From Hyphococcus sp. (GTDB lineage: Bacteria; Pseudomonadota; Alphaproteobacteria; Caulobacterales; Parvularculaceae), in the NCBI GenBank assembly GCA_028284345.1, contig JANQRY010000003.1, positions 186,001-250,000 of the forward strand: a stretch of DNA of 64,000 nt. Direction: 5' to 3'. Each line of letters starts with the position of its first letter. The first letter of the stretch is position 1. This document shows, piece by piece, positions 4,780 to 21,219 of this stretch. The notes under the pieces were generated by a model. It saw only the letters and a program-made list of their open reading frames with translations, had not been told where the DNA came from and made no database searches. A program made the translations under genes and the position numbers.

Positions 4780-4866
<87 letters not shown>

Positions 4867-4999: not shown

Positions 5000-5134
5000 T
5001 CAGAGTGAGTCCCACTGGGGACTGAGAGCGAGTCCGTGTTTGGAACTCGATCCGAATTGAGGCTCGGAACTGATACCTGAAGGGCATTCGAAGCTGCGTT
5101 GAGCAGTTCCGGATCAAGTTCGGAGTATGTTGAG

Positions 5135-6334
5135 ATGTCGAAGCTCAACCAGATGATCGTCAAGAACGCGAAGCCGCGCGAGCGTGCTTATAAAATGGCT
5201 GACGGCGCCGGCATGTACTTGCTCGTCAAACCGAACGGCGGACGATATTGGCGCCTTGATTATCGGTATCGAGACAAACACAAGACATTGGCGCTTGGCG
5301 TCTATCCCGAAGTCTCGCTTGCGGAAGCGCGCATCAAACGCGAGCACGCAAGAAGGCAAATTCGTGATGGGACCGATCCGAGCCACGCGCGCAAAGTCGA
5401 GAGGCTCACTGGCGCGAAACCAGGCCGGACCTTTCAGGATGTCGCCGAAGAGCTGATTGAAAAGATGGCAAGCGAAGGTCGAGCGCAAGTCACGATCGAC
5501 AAGACTAAGTGGGTTTTTAAATTCGCCTATCCCTTCTTTGGTGATCAGTTGGTGAATGAAATAACGGCGCAAGAAGTGCTCGCCGCTCTGCGTGTAGTTG
5601 AAGCTAAAGGCAATTTCGAGACTGCACGCCGCTTGCGGAGCAAATGCGGCCAAGTCTTTCGATTGGCAATCGCCACAGGACGAGCTGAACGCGACCCGAC
5701 ACAGGATTTGCGCGGAGCTCTAACCACACCCAAGAGGAAACACTATGCGACGATCGTTCGACCGAAGGAAATAAGCGCCCTCCTCCTCGCAATCGACGGT
5801 TACACCGGACACACAACGACACGTCTCGCCCTTCAGCTGATTGCCCTCACCTTCGTCCGGCCGGGGGAGCTCCGCCACGCCGAATGGCGGGAATTCGATT
5901 TCGATGCGAAAATCTGGGAAATCCCTGCTGAAAAAATGAAAATGCGCCGGCTCCATCGCATACCCCTAGCGACGCAGGCGCTTGATCTGATTGAAACATT
6001 ACGCCCACTTACGGAAACGAGCCCGTATCTCTTTCCCACGATCAGCAATTATCACCGCCCTATGTCTGAGAACACGCTCACAAGCGCACTTCGGCGAATG
6101 GGTTATACAGGCGAACAAATGACTGCACACGGCTTTCGCGCGATGGCGGCCACACGATTGAACGAGATGAATAACTGGTCGCCCGACGTGATCGAACGTC
6201 AACTTGCACATCAAGAAGCAAACCCTGTCCGTCGCGCCTATACGCATGCGGCCGAATACTGGGACGATCGCGTTGAAATGATGCAGGTTTGGGCGGACTA
6301 CTTGGACGAGCTCCGAAATCACTCTTCGCAATAA
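5135..6334 (+). CDS. Tyrosine-type integrase, P4 family (DUF4102 arm-binding domain)
   Basis: 399 aa, normal for P4-type integrases. The N-terminal DUF4102-like arm-binding domain includes GMYLLVKPNGGRYWRLDYRY and TLALGVYPEVSLAEAR. The catalytic domain shows R242 in FVRPGELRHAEW, H332/R335 in HGFRAMAATRLNE, a histidine in QLAHQ and the terminal AYTHAAEYW segment with candidate nucleophiles Y369/Y375. ATG at 5135 was chosen because GGAG sits 9 bp upstream; the frame is open further upstream. It lies just downstream of tRNA-Leu, reads away from it, and is expected to integrate and excise the element. Confidence 0.93.
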   Translation: MSKLNQMIVKNAKPRERAYKMADGAGMYLLVKPNGGRYWRLDYRYRDKHKTLALGVYPEVSLAEARIKREHARRQIRDGTDPSHARKVERLTGAKPGRTFQDVAEELIEKMASEGRAQVTIDKTKWVFKFAYPFFGDQLVNEITAQEVLAALRVVEAKGNFETARRLRSKCGQVFRLAIATGRAERDPTQDLRGALTTPKRKHYATIVRPKEISALLLAIDGYTGHTTTRLALQLIALTFVRPGELRHAEWREFDFDAKIWEIPAEKMKMRRLHRIPLATQALDLIETLRPLTETSPYLFPTISNYHRPMSENTLTSALRRMGYTGEQMTAHGFRAMAATRLNEMNNWSPDVIERQLAHQEANPVRRAYTHAAEYWDDRVEMMQVWADYLDELRNHSSQ

Positions 6335-6349
6335 ACCGATGCTATTGAA

Positions 6350-7069
6350 ATGAACAAGAGATCCAACGCTGCGGACAAAGCAATAAGACGAAGGCGTCGC
6401 TCCAAAACGCTTCGTGTGCTCGCCGTCGAACAACCACCAGATTACGAAATCTCCGAAAATGAACTTGATGAACTCGACCCATATATCACTGACACTGAGT
6501 TAGCCGATTGGTATAAAGACTTTCAGCGGCGGCAAGGAGCCAGCTCACAAGAGCTGTTTGAAGAAGACGGCATCTTCATGTCTGTAATACTCGGGGATAT
6601 GCAACACAAAATATATGAAGGCATCTATGAAGCAACAAAGGACAATCCGCTATTCGCTATTGAAGCTTTCGTGGTCGCACATCATTTAAACCTGTATCCG
6701 CCACGCTGGGTGCTCGAATGGCTTTATGATGCGTTCGCAAAATACCTGGCATCGCCCAATGAAGAAGACCTCGCGAAGCTTCTAAAAGCAAAGCGCGGTA
6801 AGGGCAAAACACCGATCAAAAAAGAATCTCGCAAACTACAGATCGAAACCATCGCGATGAACCAAATTCTCGCTCTTAACTTTCGGGGCATCGCAATAGA
6901 AAAAGCCGCTGCGATAGTCGAAGAGCAGCTCACAGCTCGCGGTATTGAAGTGCAATCGGCTGACGTGCTCGCCGAACGCTTCACCAAACGCGGATGGGGT
7001 GCAATAGCCCGATCGTTAAAGCAGGCAATAAATGAAAACAGCGATCAAAAAAGTAAAAGCGATGTCTGA
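6350..7069 (+). CDS. Hypothetical protein of the integrative element
   Basis: 239 aa, starting 15 bp after the integrase stop on the same strand, so probably cotranscribed. The N-terminus is strongly basic (AIRRRRRSKTLR), followed by an acidic stretch. The middle is helical and aromatic (YPPRWVLEWLYDAFAKYL). A basic hinge (KAKRGKGKTPIKKESRK) precedes a C-terminal segment with the look of a helix-turn-helix (GIAIEKAAAIVEEQL). No family is recognised. A DNA-binding or regulatory role is a guess from charge and position. Codon use is AT-rich like the rest of the element. Confidence 0.6.
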   Translation: MNKRSNAADKAIRRRRRSKTLRVLAVEQPPDYEISENELDELDPYITDTELADWYKDFQRRQGASSQELFEEDGIFMSVILGDMQHKIYEGIYEATKDNPLFAIEAFVVAHHLNLYPPRWVLEWLYDAFAKYLASPNEEDLAKLLKAKRGKGKTPIKKESRKLQIETIAMNQILALNFRGIAIEKAAAIVEEQLTARGIEVQSADVLAERFTKRGWGAIARSLKQAINENSDQKSKSDV

Positions 7070-7515
7070 ATCGAAAATGCGAGGACCGTCTCGATTCCAC
7101 ACTTATAGATTTCAGTATGAGTCTTTTCTGCATTTATCAACAGGATACCATCCCTTAGAGTTATTGGAATGTCAGCACTGCGGGCAGGAGCGGACATTAG
7201 GAACCGCGTAATTTCGATCAACTTTGGTCGCTTCGCTAAATCGATTGGTTAGGCGATCGACTTCACTGTTTTGAACCCTTAATTGGATGTTCCGAGCGCC
7301 TATTCTTGGGACTGTCGCGCTGCAGGCCGATAACGTACACAATAATCCTCAGCTCAAAGATACGAGCCGTCCTACCATCGGCAAATTTCAATTAAAATGT
7401 TGGTGATCCGTTTCAACAAAATGCGTTACGGTGGCGCTCATTTACCGGTCGGGCCTAAAACTGCTCTCACTTTCCGAATACGCGAATTCACCAACAACAA
7501 AATAGTGCTCGCGCA
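7070..7515. other. Non-coding stretch upstream of the defence operon
   Basis: About 445 bp with no ORF I can support on either strand; the open frames lack an RBS and familiar protein text. It probably holds the promoter of the RHH-helicase-DUF4391-Mod-Res operon, but I could not place one with confidence. Confidence 0.4.
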
Positions 7516-7537
7516 TTGTGTATCCAATGTGTACACT
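7516..7537 (+). promoter_or_regulatory. Candidate operator for the RHH regulator
   Basis: GTGTA occurs at 7518 and again at 7529, exactly 11 bp apart. The second copy lies in the perfect palindrome GTGTACAC (7529-7536), 7 bp before the RHH start codon. RHH repressors commonly bind tandem half-sites about one helical turn apart just upstream of their own gene, so autoregulation is a reasonable inference. Confidence 0.4.
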
Positions 7538-7543
7538 ACCGCC

Positions 7544-7738
7544 ATGACGAAAGATTCTGGTCTTCGCATCCGGGTGGAGAAAGAGCTCCGGGAGAGATTT
7601 TTAGCTTTGTGCAAAAAGCAAGATCGCCCAGCGGCGCAGGTACTACGCGAATTTATGCGCGGATACCTCGACGAACACGAACCGACAAACCAGAGCACTT
7701 CAGCAGAAACCCGACAGACAAAGGGTCATCAGAAGTGA
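7544..7738 (+). CDS. Ribbon-helix-helix (CopG/Arc-type) regulator
   Basis: 64 aa from ATG 7544. The pattern fits an RHH fold: a short strand (SGLRIRVEKEL), helix 1 (RERFLALCKKQ), a turn with DRPAAQ, and helix 2 (VLREFMRGYLDEH). The longer open frame (from 7397) is rejected because the added text does not resemble protein. Its TGA overlaps the GTG start of the helicase gene (GTGA), so the two are translationally coupled. It probably represses its own operon through the GTGTA repeats immediately upstream. RHH proteins are often antitoxins, but no toxin gene is adjacent. Confidence 0.75.
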   Translation: MTKDSGLRIRVEKELRERFLALCKKQDRPAAQVLREFMRGYLDEHEPTNQSTSAETRQTKGHQK

Positions 7739-10700
7739 AGGTAGTCGATAACATCAACATCTTGCTGGGTGATGACCTCAAAACTTCCTTGAAAGGTTGT
7801 TCCAGGCTCAAGATCGCCGCGTCTTGTTTTTCAATTTACGCTTTTGAAGCGTTAAAGACTGAGCTTGAGAAAATTAATGGGCTAGATTTTATCTTCACTG
7901 CGCCCACGTTTTTGCCGGAAGATGTGACTGATCGAGCAAAACGGGAGCGCCGGGAATTTTTCATCCCCAAAGTACAGCGCGAGCGGAGCCTGTACGGGTC
8001 TGAATTCGAAATTCAATTGAGAAACAAGCTTACGCAGAAAGCTGTCGCTCGTGAATGCGCTGCTTGGATTAGGAAGAAAGCGAACTTCCGATCAAACAAA
8101 ACGAAAGCGCCGATGCAGCAATTCGTATGCGTTGACGGGGTGGAAAATCAGGTCGCTTATATGCCTGTCAGTGGTTTCACCGCTGTTGATCTTGGATATC
8201 AGAAAGGCAATGCAGTTTCTAATATCGTCAATCGCTTTGATGGTGCGCCATATACAGAAACTTATATTGAATTATTTGACCAAATTTGGACTGATCCAGA
8301 AAAGCTTGAAGATGTGACGGAGGCAATATGTCAGCATATTGAATCCGTTTATCATGAGAATTCGCCAGAGCGCATCTACTTCCTTATATTGTATAATTTG
8401 TTCAACGAATTTCTTGAAGAAATCGACGAGGATGTTCTTCCGAATGATCGTACCGGATATCTCGACAGCGCTGTATGGAACAAGCTTTTTAATTATCAAC
8501 GAGACGCTGCGACCGGCATCATAAATAAGCTCGAAACCTATAATGGCTGTATTCTTGCCGACAGCGTCGGTTTAGGAAAAACGTTCACCGCACTCGCGGT
8601 CATAAAATACTATGAGTTGCGCAACCGGTCCGTCCTTGTTCTTTGTCCAAAAAAGCTCGCGGATAATTGGCTCAACTTTAACAAAAATCTGAAAACCAAT
8701 ATCTTTGCGGCGGATCGCTTCAACTATGATGTCCTGTGTCATACAGATTTGTCGCGAACAAGCGGCGACTCATTCGGAATTGCGTTGAACCGTGTAAATT
8801 GGGGTAATTACGACCTCGTCGTGATCGATGAGTCTCACAATTTTCGAAACAACGACATCTACAAAGACAAAGAGACCCGGTATCAAAAGCTGATGAACCA
8901 GGTCATCCGCGAAGGCGTGAAAACGAAAGTTTTGATGCTTTCGGCGACGCCAGTGAACAACCGCTTCAATGATCTGCGCAATCAGTTAGCGCTTGCCTAT
9001 GAGGGGCAATCAGAAAAACTGAGTAGTAAGCTTAAGGCGCAGTCGAGCGTGGAAGAGATATTCCGCCGCGCACAGACCACATTCAACATTTGGTCTAAAT
9101 TGCCGCCTGAGGAGCGAACAGCACCTGCAATTCTCAAGATGCTGGATTTTGATTTCTTCGAACTACTGGACAGCGTAACGATTGCGCGCTCGCGCAAACA
9201 TATTGAGACTTTTTACGACACGGCGGATATTGGGAAATTCCCCGAAAGGCGAAAACCGCTGTCATTCCATTGTCCACTTACGTCGCGGAAGGACGTAATG
9301 GGCCTCAATGACATTGTTGCACAGCTCAGTATGCTTAAGCTCGCCGTGTATGCGCCGTTGAGTTACATTTTGCCAAGCCGCATCGCCAAATATGAAGCCC
9401 TTTACGATACAGCAGTTGAAGGCGGCGGCGCTCCATTGAAGCAGGCAGACCGCGAACGCAGCCTGCAAGCGCTGATGACGACGAATTTATTGAAGCGCCT
9501 GGAAAGCTCTGTTGAAGCATTCCGCTTGACGCTTCGGTCGCTAAAATCAAACTTGAATGACACCCTTGACGCCATCGCTGATTTTGAGCGGTCAGGCGGC
9601 ATCTTCGACGTTTCCGATTTCACCGAACAAGCTGAGAATTTCGATCCAGACGATGATGATTTGTCGGGGCTTGGCGATTTTACGGTCGGAAAGAAGATTC
9701 AAATCAGCCTAGCAGACATGGATGTGCAGTCCTGGACGCATGACCTTAAAAGTGATTTGGCGTTAATTGATGCTTTGCTTGCGTCGATGGACCTTATTCG
9801 TCCGGAAGACGATGCGAAACTCCAGCATCTGAAAAATCACCTACAAGAAAAGATCAACAAGCCACTGAATGCAGGCAACAAGAAGGTGCTTATATTCACG
9901 GCGTTCGCAGATACGGCGAATTATCTTTATAACAATATAGCGCCCGAATTAGCGAAACAATCAGGGCTAAATATTGGGCGCGTGACGGGAACCGACGCTC
10001 CAAAAACGACGCTGAAAAAGCATTATGACTTCCAATCGATCCTGACGCTTTTTTCGCCGCGCTCAAAAGAGAAAGCGCTGATAATGCCTGATGAGAAGGC
10101 AGAGATTGATATCCTCATTGCAACAGATTGCATCTCAGAGGGGCAAAATCTTCAGGACTGCGACTATCTTGTAAACTACGACATTCACTGGAATCCAGTG
10201 CGGATTATTCAGCGGTTCGGACGGATCGACCGCATCGGATCGCCGAACGCAGAAATTCAGCTCGTTAATTATTGGCCGGACATCACGCTCGATGAATACA
10301 TAAATCTCAAAGAGCGTGTCGAAAATCGGATGGTTATCGCTGATGTCACGGCGACAGGTGACGATAACGTCCTTACGGCAAAATCGAGTGAAATTGCATA
10401 TAGGAAAGAACAGCTCAAACGCCTTCAGGAAGAAGTGATCGAACTTGAAGACGTGAAGACTGGCGTCTCAATCACCGATCTAGGTCTCAATGACTTTCGT
10501 ATGAACCTTCTCAATTACGTCAAGGAGCATGATGACCTTGAACGTATGCCAAACGGTCTTCACGCCGTTGTGCCAGCGGACAAGGAATTTGGACTTGAGC
10601 CTGGAATTATCTTCGCGCTGAAAAATATCCATGACGGCGTCAACATCAATCAGCAAAACCGCCTGCATCCCTATTACCTCGTCTATATTTCGAACGAAGG

Positions 10701-11007
10701 CAAAATCGTTGCCGACCATACCGAAGTGAAAAAACTCCTCGACCTTATGCGGGCGAGTTGTAAAGGCGAATCTGAGCCAGTCCAAGCTGTGTGCCGCTTA
10801 TTTAACGAACAAACAGATGATGGCCGAAAAATGGACCGCCAGTCAGAACTTCTTAGCGAAGCTATCCATTCCATGATTGATGTCAAAGAAGAAAAAGATA
10901 TCGACAGTCTCTTCTCTCGTGGCCGAACAACCGCACTCGTAAACACGATAGCGGGTCTTGATGACTTTGAGTTGATTGCCTTCCTCGTCATCCAGGAGGC
11001 TGCATGA
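7735..11007 (+). CDS. PLD-like domain/SNF2 helicase of the type III R-M operon
   Basis: 1090 aa from GTG 7735, which overlaps the RHH stop; a longer open frame upstream is the RHH gene read out of frame. Residues 1 to about 230 resemble the phospholipase-D-like N-terminus of this helicase group, but no HxKxxxxD motif is visible, so catalysis there is doubtful. The SF2/SNF2 engine is intact: Walker A DSVGLGKT (K282), DESH (D365), motif III SATPVNN, and C-terminal motifs TDCISEGQNLQ and QRFGRIDRIGS. It probably translocates on DNA. It overlaps the DUF4391 gene by ATGA, so it is part of one operon with Mod and Res. Confidence 0.88.
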   Translation: MKVVDNINILLGDDLKTSLKGCSRLKIAASCFSIYAFEALKTELEKINGLDFIFTAPTFLPEDVTDRAKRERREFFIPKVQRERSLYGSEFEIQLRNKLTQKAVARECAAWIRKKANFRSNKTKAPMQQFVCVDGVENQVAYMPVSGFTAVDLGYQKGNAVSNIVNRFDGAPYTETYIELFDQIWTDPEKLEDVTEAICQHIESVYHENSPERIYFLILYNLFNEFLEEIDEDVLPNDRTGYLDSAVWNKLFNYQRDAATGIINKLETYNGCILADSVGLGKTFTALAVIKYYELRNRSVLVLCPKKLADNWLNFNKNLKTNIFAADRFNYDVLCHTDLSRTSGDSFGIALNRVNWGNYDLVVIDESHNFRNNDIYKDKETRYQKLMNQVIREGVKTKVLMLSATPVNNRFNDLRNQLALAYEGQSEKLSSKLKAQSSVEEIFRRAQTTFNIWSKLPPEERTAPAILKMLDFDFFELLDSVTIARSRKHIETFYDTADIGKFPERRKPLSFHCPLTSRKDVMGLNDIVAQLSMLKLAVYAPLSYILPSRIAKYEALYDTAVEGGGAPLKQADRERSLQALMTTNLLKRLESSVEAFRLTLRSLKSNLNDTLDAIADFERSGGIFDVSDFTEQAENFDPDDDDLSGLGDFTVGKKIQISLADMDVQSWTHDLKSDLALIDALLASMDLIRPEDDAKLQHLKNHLQEKINKPLNAGNKKVLIFTAFADTANYLYNNIAPELAKQSGLNIGRVTGTDAPKTTLKKHYDFQSILTLFSPRSKEKALIMPDEKAEIDILIATDCISEGQNLQDCDYLVNYDIHWNPVRIIQRFGRIDRIGSPNAEIQLVNYWPDITLDEYINLKERVENRMVIADVTATGDDNVLTAKSSEIAYRKEQLKRLQEEVIELEDVKTGVSITDLGLNDFRMNLLNYVKEHDDLERMPNGLHAVVPADKEFGLEPGIIFALKNIHDGVNINQQNRLHPYYLVYISNEGKIVADHTEVKKLLDLMRASCKGESEPVQAVCRLFNEQTDDGRKMDRQSELLSEAIHSMIDVKEEKDIDSLFSRGRTTALVNTIAGLDDFELIAFLVIQEAA

Positions 11008-11687
11008 CGGCCTGCTACGATTATCCAAGCGCCGCAAGATTTGGGCGCATCGTTCCAAAATCAAAAATCTACAATGCCGCGCGCGTTGGCGGCAAAGTGC
11101 GTCAGCTCTTCGTCGATCAGGTCGATCAAATAAACTGGTCTTACAAGCTCGCGCCCGAAACAATTAATCTCGGCGCAACGCCTAGCGTGCCGGAAATTCA
11201 GATATTCAGCGTCAGGCTTCGCGGAACGAATATCGACCATGATGTGCTTCACGCAATCGATAAAGCGATTGCATTTCCGATACTTTTTGAGCTTACGAAA
11301 ACCACCGAACGGAAGTTGATTGCAGCCTTCAAAAGGCCAAGCGAAGCCGATAGCGAAAAATGGGTCGTAAGCGAATATTTTGAAGCTGATTGGGAGCCTG
11401 TGGATAACCCGCGCAGACCGCTTCCACGCGTCCTCGATCTCGGCGCCCTCTATGATAGGGTTCTGTCGGAATTAATGCCTATGCCGCCCAAAAAGGGCGA
11501 GAAATTGCCTCAACGCGTGGCGCGCATCGAGACAATCAGGGCAAAAGAGCGGGATATTGGCCGCATTAAAATGCGGCTCGCTCGCGAGAAACAATTCAAC
11601 AAAAAGGTTGCTATCAACGCGGAGCTGCGCGCGGCAACCAAGGAACTTGATCAACTCGGCGGAAACGCTGCAACCAATGACGCCTAG
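11004..11687 (+). CDS. DUF4391 domain protein
   Basis: 227 aa, start overlapping the helicase stop by 4 bp. The text fits DUF4391: DYPSAARFGRIVPKSKIY near the N-terminus, a central FELTKTTERKLIAAFKRP, then SEYFEADWEP. The C-terminal third is a charged helical segment (ARIETIRAKERDIGRIKMRL) that could form a coiled coil with a partner. DUF4391 genes are known to me as neighbours of SNF2-type helicases and type III methylases in defence loci, but no activity has been assigned. I infer a bridging or loading subunit. Confidence 0.75.
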   Translation: MTACYDYPSAARFGRIVPKSKIYNAARVGGKVRQLFVDQVDQINWSYKLAPETINLGATPSVPEIQIFSVRLRGTNIDHDVLHAIDKAIAFPILFELTKTTERKLIAAFKRPSEADSEKWVVSEYFEADWEPVDNPRRPLPRVLDLGALYDRVLSELMPMPPKKGEKLPQRVARIETIRAKERDIGRIKMRLAREKQFNKKVAINAELRAATKELDQLGGNAATNDA

Positions 11688-11703
11688 GGCGAAGAGACGG
11701 ACG

Positions 11704-13644
11704 ATGGAAAAACTAAAGATGCACAGCCCAATCATGACCGATGAAAACATCGAAAAAATCCGCGCAATGTTTCCGGGCTGCGTGACTGAAGCAAACGACG
11801 AAAACGGGCAGCTTTGCTATGCCGTCGATTTCGACCAACTTCGGCAAGAACTGTCCGATCATATCGTTGACGGACCTCAAGAACGGTATCGCCTCGATTG
11901 GCCTGGGAAACGTGAAGCTTTGCTTGCTGCAAGTGTTCCGATTGCAAAAACGTTGAGGCCTTGCAGAGATGAGAGCGTCAATTTCGAAGAGACAAAGAAC
12001 CTCTTTATTGAGGGAGATAACCTGGAGGCGCTAAAATTACTTCAAGAATCTTATCTTGGCATGGTTGACTTGATCTATATAGATCCTCCTTACAATACCG
12101 GCAAAGATTTCATTTATCGAGACAACTTCATCGCTGACCGGACTAGCCACCAGCAATCGGCGGGTGAGCGCAGAAATGATGGTACTCGCCTTGTTGCGAA
12201 TCCAGACGGGAACGGAAGATTCCATTCAAGTTGGCTTTCGATGATGTATCCAAGGTTAAAATTAGCGAAAAACCTATTAGGGAAAAATGGTGCTATTTTT
12301 ATTTCTATTGATGACAATGAACTAAATTCATTGTGCAAGATATGTGACGAAATTTTCGGAGGTCAAAATCGATTAGGAATAATTCCTGTTATAAGCAATC
12401 TTAAGGGGCGCAGTGACGACAAGTATTTTGCTACAGCGCATAATTATTTGGTCTGCTATTCGAATGGCGAATTTAGCAGCTATGGGATTGAACTCCCTGA
12501 GGAATATCTAAAAGAGTATAATGAGACTGATTCCGAAGGTCGAAGATTTCGCGTCCAGGGATTGCGAAAGCGAGGGTCTGAAGCAAGGCGCGAAGATCGG
12601 CCCGCGATGTACTTCCCAATATACGTTGATCCAAGCAACGGAACGGTATCTTTGGAAGAGTCCGGGAAACATTCCGAATGCGTCTACCCAAAACTTTCGG
12701 ATGGAGCAGACGGTCGATGGCGATGGGGACTGGAGTCGGTAAAGCAAAAAACCAAGGACCTTATTGGACGACAAGTTGGAGCAGAAAAACGGTGGGATAT
12801 ATTTCAGATTGACTTCGCTGATATCGGGGGAGAGCTAAAAAGAACAATTCCAAAATCGGTTTGGATGGGTTCGGAATTTGCCAATGAAGCGGGCACTCTT
12901 GAAATAAAACAATTGTTTGGAGCAAATCTTTTCGACAACCCTAAGCCAATTTCTTTGCTGGATTATATAATTGAACAATCGGTAAGAGACGGAATTGTTC
13001 TGGATTTTTTTGCCGGTTCTGCAACAACAGCCCACGCCGTTATGGCAAACAATAGTTCACGATCTCGTTGCAACAGATATATATTGGTTCAATTGCCCGA
13101 AGAAGTACCAGAGACTTCCGAAGCTTTTAAGCGTGGATTTAAAAAGGTATCAGACATAGCAAAAGAACGAATTCGACTAGCGGGCGAACAGGTTCTAAAA
13201 AACACAAAGCCTGACAAAAGTAATGTCGATACTGGTTTCCGCGTTCTAAAAATCGATACCTCAAATATGGTCGATGTATATTATACACCTGAAGAAACAG
13301 ACCAAGAAAAATTTATCGACTCTGTAGAAAACGTAAAACCAGATCGGACCGACCCAGAGGATTTGCTCTTCCAAGTCCTAGTTGATTGGGGCGTTGATTT
13401 AACGCTTCCGATCCGCAAAGAAACAGTCCAGGGCAAGACTGTCTTCTTCGTCAATGAGAAGCCGTATGATCTTGTCGCATGTTTTGATCGTGGCGTCACA
13501 GAAGAGCTTGTGAATGAGCTTGCAAAGCATGAGCCGATGCGCGTTGTCTTCCGTGACAATGGTTTTGTTAGTGACGCCGTGAAAATCAATGTGGAGCAGA
13601 TTTTCAAGCAGCTCTCTCCCGCAACCGACGTGAAATCGATTTAA
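11704..13644 (+). CDS. mod: Type III restriction-modification DNA N6-adenine/N4-cytosine methyltransferase (Mod)
   Basis: 646 aa from ATG 11704; ATG 11677 in frame (overlapping the DUF4391 stop) is an alternative. Catalytic motif IV DPPY (D127, in [13 protein letters not shown]) precedes the AdoMet motif [15 protein letters not shown] (F436), the order of beta-class enzymes used by type III systems. The region between them, about 12240-12960, is the target-recognition domain and is markedly AT-rich compared with both ends, as expected if it was swapped by recombination. No simple-sequence repeat suggests phase variation. It modifies host DNA and supplies sequence specificity to the Res subunit encoded 16 bp downstream. 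Confidence 0.92.
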
Positions 13645-13660
13645 GACTTGGAATCGCGGG

Positions 13661-16600
13661 ATGAAGCTCAAATTCAAAGTCCAAACTTATCAGACAGACG
13701 CCGTTGAGGCCGTCGTCGATTGCTTTGAGGGGCAACCAAAGGCGGACCTGCTGCGCTATAGGATCGACCCTGGTCGGCAGAAAATTGCGAGCTTTGAGCT
13801 TGAAGATGGATTTAAGAACGAGGATGTGCGGCTCAGCGATGGCGCGCTTCTGACGAACATTCAGACAGTCCAGAAACGTCAGAATTTGCCGCTTTCGAAA
13901 TCACTGACGGATTTTACGACGCTCGACAAAAAGGGTGCGCGCAAGCCCGCCAAGAGCACCTACAAACCCGGCGCAAATATAAATCTCGATATTGAGATGG
14001 AGACCGGAACCGGCAAAACCTATTGCTATATCAAAACCATGTTCGAGATGCACAAGCGATATGGCTGGTCGAAGTTCATTGTCATGGTGCCGAGCATTGC
14101 AATCCGCGAGGGCGTTCAAAAGTCCTTTCAGATTACCGCAGACCACTTTGCCGAAATCTACGGCAAGAAAGCGCGTTTTTTCACCTATAATTCCAAGCGC
14201 TTGCATGAGCTGGAGAGCTTTTCCTCCGATGCTGGCATCAATGTGATGATTATCAATATCCAGGCCTTTAATGCGCGGGGCGCTGACAACCGGCGTATTT
14301 ATGATGAGTTGGATGACTTTCAGTCGCGCCGACCCATTGACGTGATTAGCGCTAACCGTCCGATCCTTATTTTGGATGAACCGCAGAAGATGGAAGGCAA
14401 GGCGACGCTCGACGCTCTGCCGAAATTCAATCCGCTGATGATCCTGCGGTATTCGGCGACACACCGAACGCAGCATTGCCGCGTGCATCGCCTGGATGCG
14501 CTCGATGCTTACAACCAAAAGCTTGTCAAAAAGATCGCGGTTCGCGGAATACAGACACGCGGCCTCGCGGGCACGAACGCTTATCTGTATCTTGAAGGCA
14601 TCGAGATTTCGACGAAGGCGCCGGTCGCCCGCGTTGATATGGAGGTAAAACTCAAATCGGGTGAAATTCGGCGAAAGCTCAAAAGGCTAGAATTCAAAGA
14701 CGATCTTTACGACGCATCCGGCGGCCTCGATCAATATCGCGGTTTCACGATCTCCCAGATCGACGCCAATAAAGATACGGTAGACTTCACGAATGGTGAG
14801 AGCTTATTCGCCGGCGAAGCGACCGGCGACGTAAACGAAAACGATATGCGGCGCATCCAAATTCGCGAGACTATCAAAGCGCATTTCGATAAGGAGAAGC
14901 AGCTTTTCGCCCAGGGCATCAAAGTGCTTTCCCTCTTCTTCATTGATGAGGTGAAGAAATATCGCGATTACGACCAGGACGATGAAAAAGGCGAATATGC
15001 GCGCGTTTTCGAACGTGAGTATGAAGGTTTGCGCGAAGAATATCTTGCAGAACTGGCAATCGATAACGACGATTACCGGAAATATTTAAGCGAGATTGAC
15101 CCTGCGACAACGCACAACGGCTATTTCTCCATCGATAAGAAGAACAGGATGGTTGATCCGAGTGTCAAGAAGACGGGAGAAGAAAAAGGTCTCTCCGACG
15201 ATGAAACGGCATACGACCTGATCTTGAAAGACAAAGAGAGGCTATTGTCATTCGAAGAGCCGACGCGCTTTATTTTTTCACATTCAGCCCTGCGCGAAGG
15301 TTGGGATAATCCGAATGTCTTCGTCATGTGTATGCTCAAGCATAGTGACAACACGATCTCGCGGCGACAGGAAGTCGGACGAGGACTACGTCTTTCCGTG
15401 GATCGACATGGCGAGCGTATCGACCACCCCGCTATCGTTCATGATATCAATGTTCTGACCGTCGTTGCGAGTGAGAGCTACAAAGACTTCGTTAAAGGCC
15501 TTCAGACTGAAATTGCCGACACGCTGTCAGCCAGGCCGCGTAAGGCTAACGAAGAATACTTTACCGGTAAGGTTATTCAAACGGACGAAGGTTCGCTTGA
15601 GATCACGCCGCAGATGGCTAAGCAAATTTACCGGTATCTGATTAAGAACGATTTCACTGACGATGACGACGCAATTACGGATGAATACCACCAAGCTAAG
15701 GACAGCGGCGATCTGCCTGGCTTCGCTGAAGACCTTGAGCCTTTTCGTGACCAAATTATCGAACTCATCGACAGCGTCTTTGATGACAGCAAACTGCCGA
15801 AAATTGATGACGGCAGAAAACCGAAGACCAATCCGCTTAACGATAACTTCAAGAGGAAGGAATTTCAGGAGCTGTGGTCGAGGATTAACCGCAAGGCTGT
15901 ATACCGCGTTGAATTTGACTCGGCAGAGTTAATCGAGAAAGCCGTCAAGGCTCTCGACAGCGAGCTTCGCGTGACGCCGCTTCAATATACCGTTCAGCGC
16001 GGTGAACAAGCTGCTGCCGTTACAGACGAGCAGCTAAAAGCCGGAGAGAGTTTTAAAGTAACCGATACTTCAACAGAACGGGCCGGCTCCGTTTATTCGA
16101 ACGTGGCTTATGATCTCGTCGGAAAAGTAGCTGAAAACGTACAGCTCACGCGCAAAACAGTTGCTGAAATTCTGACCGCCATAGAGACATCTGTTTTCAA
16201 GCAATTCAAGGAAAGTCCAGAGCATTTCATTGCAGAGGCGTCGCGCCTGATTAAGGAGCAGAAAGCGACCGCAGTTATAGAAAAGCTCCAATATGACGAA
16301 GTCGAAGACCGCTACGATGCAAATATATTTACCGCTGCCCAAAGCGGCCAAGACTTCTCTCGTGCGACCGAGAAACTGAAGCGCCACATTTACGATTACT
16401 GCGTTGTGGATTCCAAGCAGGAACGACGTTTCGTTGATGAGCTTGATACAAGCGACTCAATCGTTATCTACGCAAAGCTGCCGCGCGGTTTTTTAATCCC
16501 AACACCAGTGGGAGACTATAACCCAGACTGGGCGATTTCCTTCAAACGTGGGGCGGTAAAACACATCTACTTCATGGCTGAAACAAAAGGATCGATGTCG

Positions 16601-16756
16601 TCAATGGCGCTTCGTGAATTAGAGCGGACAAAGATCAAATGTGCCCGCAAATTTTTTGATGAAATCAATGAACGTATTGACCAGGATAAAGTTAAATATG
16701 ATGTCGTCACTGATTTCGCGACATTGATGGATGTCGTTAGTGTAAAGGCCGCCTGA
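13661..16756 (+). CDS. res: Type III restriction endonuclease subunit (Res)
   Basis: 1031 aa. SF2 translocase motifs are intact: Walker [10 protein letters not shown] (K119), motif [11 protein letters not shown] (D239), then [16 protein letters not shown] and [14 protein letters not shown] (motif VI). The C-terminal PD-(D/E)xK nuclease is also intact: D956 in YNPDWAISF and E974/K976 in FMAETKGSM. Length is typical. It is the last gene of the operon. With Mod it should cut unmodified DNA between inversely oriented sites in an ATP-dependent way. All catalytic motifs I could look for are present, so the system appears functional. Confidence 0.93.
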
Positions 16757-18637: not shown

Positions 18638-20176
18638 ATGGAAGGATGCGTATTTCGTGGGCCGGTCCTTCTTAGGCATATCATCAGCCGGACTATTTCA
18701 TTTCGAGGTAGTCGCGTGTTCGAATTGAACGCAAGCGAGGCTGATATCCGTGGTTCACTCTTACTTAGCCAGTTAACCGACGTATCCGATCACGCTGTTG
18801 CTCGTACTCTGCAGAACAACAAACACGTTGGCTCTCGTTTCAGGGCACATAAGCTGATCGACCTAAGCCTCGCGAACGTTACGGGCGACGTTGTTCTATC
18901 GGGTGCTGATATTGGATGTTCACTCGATGGCTCACATGCAGGCACTCTAGCGGAGGGGTGTGCCTTGATGGCGGGAGGATTGAAAGCGAACGCTCTTTGG
19001 ATTGATAGCTCTAGTGTAAATGGGCGGGTCTTCCTCGCCGGCGCCGAGTTAAAAACAATGCTGTCAATTAGAGAAACCGACATTGAGCTTCCGATCGATA
19101 ATTCACAACTCACCGCAGAGCCAAACTCAAAAGGCCGCGCATCGCACCCTGATCTACTCCTTGGAAAGCCTGAGTTTAGGTTTGTTGCTTTAGCAGCAAA
19201 TGACATGACGTTAGGAACCAAACTCTATATCCAAAATTGTCGTGTTCTCGGTCAAGTGCGATTATCTCGCGCAAAAATTGGCGGCGACTGCCTTTTTGAA
19301 AGCAGTCTGTTTTGCTCTCCGTACGTCGCACTTAGGAATCAGTTGGAGGGAGTCGGAATACAGGACCCCGAACAGTCAGTAATGCAATACTTAACCACAA
19401 TGGGTATCGACGATGACAGCCATCATATGGCGTCATTACACGCATCACGAGCCGATATCGGAGGCGGTGTTTTCCTAAATCTAGCAACTAGCTGCGGAGA
19501 GCTTCGATTCAGAAACACACGTATACGTGGTGTTTTGAATGCTCGGGGCGCTTTGCTCATATCCTTGAGATCTATCCAGCTATCGCAGGTCGATTTCGAT
19601 CAAATAAAGCCTCCTAATGGGCAGTCAGTGAGTGGGTTATTGCACGCCGGAGCATCTCAGCTCGAGACCTCGAAAAAGCGATTAGTGTCATCGCAATTGG
19701 ATAAACTCCTATCGGGAATTGCACTCTGCGCGGATCGGGCGGATATCAATAGTAGCGTGTTTTTTGGGCGACAGGACGTGCATGACAGCATTGACCGGAG
19801 AATTCTGTTTCGATCGTATGGTGAAGTTTCGATGCGTCAAACACGAATTGGCGGCTCATTGAGCTGCCGCCACGCCCAAATGGTAGCTGCAGCACTTCCT
19901 ATAGCGGGCCGTACGGCTGAACTAGGCGTGAACGAAATCGGGCAAAAGCATTTTGTCGCTTTGGCGCTGTCAGGTAGCGAGGTCGGCGGAACATTGTTTC
20001 TTTCCGGTGACACGGGCACCCAGTGTTTTAGATCAGAGGGAGAAATTCGATTACGAGGTGCAAAGATAAAAGGTAACATCATCTTTCACAATGGCCGGTT
20101 TTTACACGTACCAATCGAAACTTATGCTCCGAGAAAGCACTTACTCGAGAGTTTTATGAGAGTCGCCCAGTCATAA
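18638..20176 (+). CDS. Beta-solenoid repeat protein, N-terminal part of a split gene
   Basis: 512 aa from the first ATG. The same frame is open from 18437 and that extra 67-codon text is protein-like (e.g. IPHDTKIPSDLLEEAEKNAR, LGYDPAYSGLSINGELCLDS), but contains no ATG, GTG or TTG, so the true start is lost or in another frame. The body is a degenerate parallel beta-helix: units such as ADIRGSLLLS, SVNGRVFLAGAEL, AKIGGDCLFES, ADIGGGVFLN, TRIGGSLSCRHA and AKIKGNIIFH. This resembles proteins often labelled membrane-associated oxidoreductase, a label I do not trust. The frame ends inside the repeat region; the next frame continues it. Probably a pseudogene fragment. Confidence 0.6.
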   Translation: MEGCVFRGPVLLRHIISRTISFRGSRVFELNASEADIRGSLLLSQLTDVSDHAVARTLQNNKHVGSRFRAHKLIDLSLANVTGDVVLSGADIGCSLDGSHAGTLAEGCALMAGGLKANALWIDSSSVNGRVFLAGAELKTMLSIRETDIELPIDNSQLTAEPNSKGRASHPDLLLGKPEFRFVALAANDMTLGTKLYIQNCRVLGQVRLSRAKIGGDCLFESSLFCSPYVALRNQLEGVGIQDPEQSVMQYLTTMGIDDDSHHMASLHASRADIGGGVFLNLATSCGELRFRNTRIRGVLNARGALLISLRSIQLSQVDFDQIKPPNGQSVSGLLHAGASQLETSKKRLVSSQLDKLLSGIALCADRADINSSVFFGRQDVHDSIDRRILFRSYGEVSMRQTRIGGSLSCRHAQMVAAALPIAGRTAELGVNEIGQKHFVALALSGSEVGGTLFLSGDTGTQCFRSEGEIRLRGAKIKGNIIFHNGRFLHVPIETYAPRKHLLESFMRVAQS

Positions 20177-20178
20177 AC

Positions 20179-21219
20179 TTGCGGACAGCAAATGTCGCTG
20201 GCACTATCTTTTTCGCTCCTGATAAGGAGCTATCCGATGAGCAAGAGCGCGCCGGTATTCAGGGAGATAAGTCGGCTTATATCCGTGGCGGCATTGACTT
20301 TCACCTAGCAGAATGTGCGGCGTTGCAAGATTCCGATGCAAGCTGGCCATTCTTTGAACGAACAACATTAGCTTTTTGGCAGTTCGGACGCCCAAAGCAT
20401 CGAGCAAAACGACACGCTGCTGCTTGGCTTCGACTTGATGGTTTCAAATATCGTCTGCTGTCGGGGCCAACACTAAGCTGGAGGGAGCGAACGGAGTGGC
20501 TCAAAATGTCACGGTCAGCGTTCGCCACTAGCGCGGGTTCAAATAAATTTAGTTCGCTACAACCCTATGAACAATTAGCGACCGTTCTTAAATCCCAGGG
20601 TTTTGTTCATGACGCTAGTCGAATTTTGTTTCGGCGAGGCATGCTGGCGTGGAGTCCTGCCTCTACGAGCAAACGAGGCAGTGATCTTGGCGGGCAAATC
20701 ATCGCCTTTCTGCTAAACCCGCTCATTAATTACTTTCGCAAAGTCTCCTATTTTCCGCATCAAGGCGTCATTGCGATATTTGTAATGATTGTTTCTGTGA
20801 ATATCATCTCCCAAGATTTCTATGAACTAGGTCTAATGAGACCTGCCGAGGAGGAGGTGATCATTGGCGAAGACTATGCAAATTTCGGCAAAGTGCCGTT
20901 AGAGATGAGGTTCAATTCGCTGGCATATACGGTAGATCTGATCGTTCCAGGCCTTGATTTTCGCCAAGAGCGGTACTGGATGCCGAAAATCCTTATCTCG
21001 ACTGGACGTCGCCCTATGACGCCCATAGCTACGCCTGATAATATAACATTCAAAGTAAACAATAATCTGAGTAAAAGCGCTCGCAATCGAATCACCATTT
21101 ATAATAATTCCTACGCGCCGTATTTCGTTGAATTTTTCGCGCGAGTACTTGGCTGGATTTGGTTTTCCGTCACCATCTTAGGGTATACCGGTATTCTAAG
21201 GCCCGATCGTGAGGTATAG
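20179..21219 (+). CDS. C-terminal part of the split beta-solenoid membrane protein
   Basis: 346 aa if translated from TTG 20179, but the frame is open upstream from about 20077, reading RPVINLRTANVAGTIFF, one more solenoid unit. It therefore continues the previous gene after a -1 shift. Then come RTTLAFWQFGR, a conserved LQPYEQLATVLKSQGFVHDA segment typical of the C-terminus of this family, one membrane helix (GVIAIFVMIVSVNIIS) and a second near the end (ARVLGWIWFSVTILGYTGIL). No catalytic motif is visible. An anchored surface or envelope scaffold is the best guess. Confidence 0.6.
   Translation: MRTANVAGTIFFAPDKELSDEQERAGIQGDKSAYIRGGIDFHLAECAALQDSDASWPFFERTTLAFWQFGRPKHRAKRHAAAWLRLDGFKYRLLSGPTLSWRERTEWLKMSRSAFATSAGSNKFSSLQPYEQLATVLKSQGFVHDASRILFRRGMLAWSPASTSKRGSDLGGQIIAFLLNPLINYFRKVSYFPHQGVIAIFVMIVSVNIISQDFYELGLMRPAEEEVIIGEDYANFGKVPLEMRFNSLAYTVDLIVPGLDFRQERYWMPKILISTGRRPMTPIATPDNITFKVNNNLSKSARNRITIYNNSYAPYFVEFFARVLGWIWFSVTILGYTGILRPDREV

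Follow-up and report, generated by a model that had tools for sequence, protein, structure and literature searches.

An SNF2-family motor and a DUF4391 protein encoded with the type III restriction-modification genes of Hyphococcus sp.

The operon and its gene products

The stretch of DNA analysed here (64,000 nucleotides of Hyphococcus sp., contig JANQRY010000003.1; hereafter the window) carries at positions 7544-16756 five genes on the plus strand, encoding in this order an RHH-like protein, a helicase-like motor (designated HEL), a DUF4391 protein, and the modification (Mod) and restriction (Res) subunits of a type III restriction-modification (R-M) system. The first gene (7544..7738) encodes a putative small regulator of 64 amino acids (aa), for which the Pfam RHH_9 match lies below the cut-off (E 1.8e-4; 21.7 bits against 23.4), so that the assignment is weak. 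It is followed by HEL (7735..11007; 1090 aa, GTG start), an SNF2-family motor with a degenerate PLD (HKD) front, by the DUF4391 protein (11004..11687; 227 aa), composed of an alpha/beta domain and a C-terminal helical hairpin, by the beta-class type III DNA methyltransferase Mod (11704..13644; 646 aa), and by Res (13661..16756; 1031 aa), which combines an SF2 ATPase with a PD-(D/E)XK nuclease. As read in the original prediction, all junctions are tight: RHH and HEL overlap by GTGA, HEL and DUF4391 by ATGA, and gaps of 16 bp separate DUF4391 from Mod and Mod from Res.

The type III nature of the locus, likewise predicted, is supported by protein families, motifs and homology. Mod matches Pfam N6_N4_Mtase (E 7.3e-29) and PADLOC MTase_III (E 1.8e-202) and carries by pattern DPPY at 127 and DFFAGSA at 434, as expected for a beta-class amino-methyltransferase. 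Res matches Pfam ResIII and RE_endonuc and PADLOC REase_III, and carries the SF2 ATPase motifs (a 12-residue motif at 239 and QEVGRGLR at 570) together with a C-terminal PD-(D/E)XK motif (PD...ETK from 955). Both subunits were matched by phmmer to EcoP15I (PDB 4zcf; Res E 3.4e-67, Mod E 1.3e-53), and their genes are adjacent on the same strand. HEL matches Pfam SNF2-rel_dom and Helicase_C and PADLOC C3a139 'HKD+Snf2', with GLGKT at 279, DESH at 365 and QRFGRIDR at 826. The DUF4391 protein belongs to PF14335 (E 8.4e-54); it gave no match in PADLOC, none among PDB sequences up to E 1, and no significant match to known folds in structural comparison.

Conservation of the four-gene unit

The order HEL-DUF4391-Mod-Res on one strand, by which we define the variant and which the window follows, was searched for from three sides. 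Starting from HEL, we collected 80 loci (L062-L141; L and G numbers are our own handles for loci and genomes), which are the best 80 of 567 confirmed ones (56-84% identity), and this set is biased to close relatives because it was taken by score. The 80 span 13 named phyla plus a lineage that is unplaced, and in 72 of them the four genes lie in order, some of them in pieces; among the remaining eight, seven have less than 4 kb of contig left, and one (L089) shows 4.7 kb of other open reading frames (ORFs) and a Mod fragment in a stretch without Res. Starting from DUF4391, we sampled 299 genomes from the phylum of the window and found it in 19, of which 17 carry a full-length HEL, the other two being a contig-edge and a contig-start locus. 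The search for HEL above 700 bits marked 18 of the 299 genomes, the same 17 plus G071. Besides the window, 13 of 18 DUF4391-anchored loci hold all four genes in order (in L031 with Mod in two pieces), four are cut at contig ends (L030, L035, L041, L044), and in L032 DUF4391 stands at a contig start, the other 9.6 kb consisting of other ORFs without HEL, Mod or Res. Within the window's class, 8 of 289 genomes matched HEL (E at most 1e-60): six with the full four genes, one cut after DUF4391 (L154) and one with an Argonaute-like fusion (L153).

The helicase and DUF4391 thus belong to the locus, as had been supposed, and are not absent from most homologous loci anchored on either of them. The operon had been called enlarged; the four-gene arrangement is instead the usual form for this HEL family. 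The RHH gene was tried as a conserved fifth part and rejected, since a phmmer comparison with 113 candidate ORFs located 5' of 75 HELs gave no relative, even with matches accepted up to E 10; it is a variable regulator outside the conserved unit.

Seen from Res, the association is looser. A census of RE_endonuc in the 299 phylum genomes gave 31 strong places (E at most 2.1e-20), 15 of which lie in a HEL/DUF4391 locus; for a further three, a contig end cuts the HEL locus of the same genome and Res stands on a separate contig. The remaining 13 comprise plain Mod-Res loci, contig edges, one locus not fetched, and loci with a DrmD-type helicase (L046, L053). Among the 289 class genomes, Res was found at 17 places in 16 genomes. 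Eleven of these places lack a full HEL. At L147, Mod is split and a 44-aa ORF matches DUF4391 weakly (24 bits). Four places are contig edges (L148, L149, L150 and L189), two of which, L149 and L150, retain pieces of DUF4391. At L159 only a fragment of Res is present, at L152 the helicase is of the DrmD type, and at L049, L151, L190 and L191 Mod and Res stand by themselves. The expectation that helicase and DUF4391 accompany most homologous loci therefore holds in one direction: HEL and DUF4391 are strongly tied to the presence of Mod-Res, and Mod-Res less closely to theirs.

A quick tree of 54 Res sequences, comprising 39 of 93 HEL-linked Res plus that of the window, excluding contig-edge Res loci, and including the phage P1 Res hand-labelled as plain from its annotation, needs six changes of the HEL+DUF4391 label; shuffled labels need 12.6, and none of 500 shuffles gave so low a number. 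The plain loci L050, L054 and L195 are nested among HEL-linked Res, suggesting that in them the motor was lost and Mod-Res retained. The Res of E. coli NCTC86 forms an extreme long branch, from which we draw no conclusion.

The HEL-DUF4391 distance is at most 30 bp in 67 of 78 loci (an exact 4-bp overlap in 37), and a distance of at most 60 bp was measured for DUF4391-Mod in 53 of 73 loci and for Mod-Res in 30 of 59. In 41 of the 80 loci one interval or more exceeds 300 bp, in 35 of these between Mod and Res. After scanning 12 different inserted ORFs from 62 such intervals, we identified Schlafen AlbA_2/HATPase (cluster of 13), RhuM (6), Bro-N (5) and 23S-IVP (5) proteins; GmrSD-like, type IV-like, Fic, Abi_2 and AAA_21 proteins were met once each. 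Additional genes from families known or suspected to act in defence (Schlafen AlbA_2, RhuM, Bro-N, GmrSD, Fic, Abi_2, AAA_21) are thus often housed in the four-gene unit. In L119, L120, L137 and L140 a tandem pair of full-length Mod genes accompanies one Res, possibly providing two specificities.

The four proteins diverge in a correlated manner. In 59 complete loci, protein distances, host phylogeny included, correlate at 0.895 for HEL-Res, 0.894 for HEL-DUF4391 and 0.83 for DUF4391-Res, and at 0.52-0.59 for Mod with the other three (each p 0.001). The lower values for Mod would be consistent with swapping of its recognition domain.

All or most of the unit is annotated, among other records, on plasmids of Methylotuvimicrobium, E. 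coli, Acinetobacter, Aeromonas, Weissella, Paraburkholderia and Enterococcus, on an archaeal plasmid (L160), and on the chromosomes of E. coli CFT073 and NCTC11023. Broken or incomplete annotated copies occur in Desulforapulum (a 156-aa Res piece), Acetobacter (no annotated Res), Lactococcus (an IS element in the helicase region) and Listeria pLM80 (no annotated Mod). In E. coli, the HEL-DUF4391 DNA query matched over some part of its length in 68 of 5426 genomes, in 10 of them over at least 80%. Erysipelothrix phage phi1605 (L194, MF172979) carries genes in tandem for a helicase, for a small protein with a chemotaxis annotation, for Mod and for Res, and this Res clusters with the HEL+DUF4391-linked ones.

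Upstream of the operon, the window carries a tRNA-Leu (CAG) gene (4780..4866, plus strand), a probable integration site, and a tyrosine integrase gene (5099..6334, plus strand). No second copy of the tRNA-Leu 3' end was found in the genome with up to two mismatches allowed, so that integration at this tRNA is suggested by the adjoining integrase. In E. coli CFT073 (L145), the four-gene unit likewise lies beside tRNA-Leu and an (inactivated) integrase. On the 3' side of the operon, two big adjacent ORFs of 512 and 346 aa occupy 18638-21219 on the same strand.

The PLD front of HEL and its HKD-intact relatives

The front of HEL was compared with that of P0006, the HEL relative of genome G071 (locus L061), which is 42% identical to HEL and carries HGKLIHID and GSSNFT. 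In the alignment, LLHGKLIHI and GSSNFT of P0006 lie opposite PMQ-QFVCV and PVSGFT of the window HEL, where both HxK and the GSSN-type second motif of HKD nucleases are absent; the lost HKD motif would correspond to codons 127-134 (8113..8136, plus strand), the register shifting by one or two residues between two alignments. Pfam PLDc_2 was undetected in the window HEL even at E 0.1, and it matched five of five tested HKD-intact relatives (E 1.7e-9 to 5.3e-8) versus none of five HKD-lost ones. We aligned 113 HELs, a set which includes L153 (without Mod or Res) and contig-cut loci, so that linkage to Mod-Res was not seen for every one. No row holds both H and K of HKD, and the H column is Q in 104 rows. 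The motor motifs are conserved, Walker A and DExH in 113 of 113 and the SATP-type motif and QRxGRxxR in 112. The original prediction that all core catalytic motifs are intact is correct for Mod, Res and the HEL motor, but not for the PLD front. This front appears by its sequence to be a pseudo-nuclease, and because of this an alternative attack on invading DNA by this domain is unlikely. Residues such as A29, F32, S33, N97, W111, G147 and G154 are invariant in 35 sequences, and because they persist the front domain has probably been retained for binding.

In a tree built from the motor alone, with the PLD columns excluded (36 rows, including 27 of the 113 HELs), all 27 HKD-lost rows fall on one side of a single branch (support 80/72; 84% of 200 bootstrap trees), which neighbors the P0006 group. 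Downstream of P0006 lie ORFs encoding Eco57I and TaqI_C domains, and L061 shows no Mod or Res in 17.5 kb. The helicases of L175 and L176 share 86% and 64% identity with P0006 as well as its HxK and GSSN motifs, and adjoin a similar fused methyltransferase, labelled type IIG by PADLOC in L175; neither Mod nor Res was seen in 19 kb of L176, and L175 stops at the contig end. The more distant L179, L180, L184, L186 and L187 retain HxK, and L185 has HAK in a gap-shifted alignment. L061, L175 and L176, each with an HKD-intact SNF2 helicase and an Eco57I/type IIG-like methyltransferase, are apparent two-gene relatives of the window system. No close P0006 relatives were found in viral contigs. A DUF4391-like domain beside P0006, indicated by a weak Pfam match (E 0.0059), was dropped since the hhalign probability was 2.9%.

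A fusion that includes a HEL-like part is seen in L153 (7944-12335; G367:C22), a single ORF of 1463 aa, of which the first ~680 residues match HEL 13-714 with 40% identity and residues 705-1463 match class II prokaryotic Argonaute (PADLOC pAgo_II, E 5e-276). This fusion lacks both HKD and the second motor lobe.

Known restriction systems and the possible role of the motor

Type III R-M systems recognise an asymmetric site and methylate one strand, and their ATP-dependent cleavage needs two inverted sites; enzymes of the EcoP15I type bind the site as Mod2-Res, hydrolyse ATP, slide, and cut when complexes meet. The classical systems, EcoP15I and EcoP1I of phage P1, share with the window homologous adjacent Mod and Res with the same catalytic motifs, but in the window unit mod is preceded by HEL and DUF4391, two extra genes that are conserved.

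In the excerpted text of Murray 2021 (PMC8259958), Eco86II-type systems carry, like the window, an extra helicase-like ATPase gene 5' of mod-res, and one extra helicase gene at this position is counted in >500 genomes, a number which may mix both helicase kinds. In E. coli NCTC86, which we take as the Eco86II source by strain and gene order, the helicase is DrmD-type (PADLOC E 1.3e-199) and lies directly 5' of mod without DUF4391, whereas in the window DUF4391 stands between HEL and mod. The NCTC86 helicase is 29% identical to HEL over 269 aa, and 46% and 58% identical, over nearly the full length, to its true relatives in L046 and L053. The identity of HEL with the published Eco86II helicase was ruled out by this low and partial similarity, the DrmD-type family and the lack of DUF4391. 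DrmD-type helicases directly 5' of Mod were seen in L046, L053, L152 and L144:16031-25448 (Eco86II lineage), and such loci form another type III lineage equipped with a motor.

The motor of HEL is homologous to that of the HKD-SNF2 helicases paired with Eco57I/type IIG-like methyltransferases (L061, L175, L176, and the distant L184-L187); these pairs differ from the window unit by an intact HKD, another type of methyltransferase, and the absence of Mod and Res in L061 and L176. HEL also resembles the SNF2 motor DrmD of DISARM (PADLOC DrmD E 5.4e-37), but scores 156.2 bits against the NCBIfam DrmD cut-off of 610, below the equivalog level. Among the best 25 matches listed for the seven proteins of 5099-16756, no DrmB or DrmC model appeared, and DrmA surfaced just as a weaker helicase similarity of HEL. 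In the PbeA and BREX-related type 2 HKD-helicases, HKD lies N-terminal to an SF2 helicase, and these are described, in the excerpts consulted, as active nuclease effectors with other partners (PMC10853773, PMC12839542); HEL is without HKD and matches PbeA weakly (PADLOC E 1.2e-9). In CglI/NgoAVII, according to the excerpted description, a separate ATPase works with a separate nuclease and methyltransferase, as may be the case here, and it is by this description that the gene set is set apart from the window unit (PMC4267653).

From the observed gene content and order, the correlated divergence, the intact motor motifs, the absence of HKD and the grouping of the HKD-lost HELs, we give about an even chance to the reading that the window operon represents in full a widespread and apparently unnamed type III R-M variant made up of four proteins, in which HEL-DUF4391 aids restriction by Mod-Res. 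In this scheme, Mod would recognise and methylate the site, and Mod2-Res would cut unmodified invader DNA through the PD-(D/E)XK of Res. HEL would be an SNF2 motor, akin to the HKD-SNF2 nuclease-helicases, that has presumably lost its nuclease site and kept its motor, the cutting role having passed to Res. DUF4391 may be a small adaptor, in complex with HEL and joining it to the same restriction pathway through contact with Mod-Res. Because a nuclease-less SNF2 motor is genetically tied to Mod-Res, the motor most simply would add translocation or remodelling: HEL-DUF4391, as an accessory translocase, most likely moves along or remodels the DNA around Mod-Res, so that cleavage would be less tied to two converging sliding complexes, or roadblocks would be cleared.

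Several observations weigh against this reading. Mod-Res occurs without HEL at L049, L050, L054, L151, L190, L191, L192 and L195, hence the motor is not strictly required. HEL-linked Res falls in two clades, one of which groups with plain and DrmD-linked Res, and it is therefore not established that the four genes came together only once. By analogy, the extra helicase of Eco86II is reported, in the same excerpts, as absent from the purified enzyme and unnecessary for methylation (PMC8259958). The support of the HKD-lost branch is moderate, with long outgroup branches flagged, and the HKD-lost L133 and L163 carry a chance HxKx4D elsewhere in their first 300 residues. Since the structure model of HEL is poor (pLDDT 65.6, pTM 0.43) and its PDB matches, SNF2/SF2 motors, have low TM-scores, the PLD fold is assigned from alignment only. 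Shared host phylogeny is contained in the distance correlations.

Three other explanations were weighed. HEL-DUF4391 may shield the host, either by limiting Res on new unmethylated host sites (restriction alleviation) or by helping Mod to reach DNA, and thereby make a strong Res tolerable. Methylation of one strand does leave unmodified sites after replication, and HEL-DUF4391 is seldom seen without Mod-Res; but Mod-Res persists without HEL in several loci, unexpected if the pair were needed for survival, and the HEL relatives are nuclease-helicases beside methyltransferases, pointing to an attack role, so we consider host protection unlikely. Somewhat less probable still is an independent defence or regulatory module which merely shares its operon and mobile island with an ordinary type III system. 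The existence of plain Mod-Res loci and the PADLOC similarity of HEL to helicases of other defence systems, e.g. DrmD and HmaA, would agree with such a module, yet all of the 80 HEL loci with enough contig keep Mod on the 3' side, and HKD is lost in the Res-bearing group, which leaves the module without an evident effector. That an ordinary Mod-Res pair merely has unrelated neighbours by chance is hardly credible: plain Mod-Res loci of related Res exist, but the order kept in 72 of 80 HEL and 13 of 18 DUF4391 loci (four more contig-cut) contradicts it, and chance neighbourhood was ruled out on this ground.

We hold as a more speculative extension, rather doubtful at present, that the unit forms a distinct ATP-dependent restriction class, with the nuclease-dead SNF2 motor and DUF4391 adaptor as the decisive translocase and cutting moved from HKD to Mod-Res. 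If so, the need for two inverted sites would be gone, and phages escaping classical type III enzymes would be caught.

No paper naming the four-gene form was found in the open-licence PubMed Central (PMC) literature, most subscription journals and bioRxiv being outside this scope, and DUF4391 is mentioned in a single paper of the same literature. This domain, in its 19 phylum genomes, is nearly always inside the four-gene unit. The contrast between HKD lost together with Res and HKD kept where no Res is seen makes the role of the motor open to laboratory test, and if the motor alters the site rules of type III restriction, the textbook two-gene systems would cover part of the family only.

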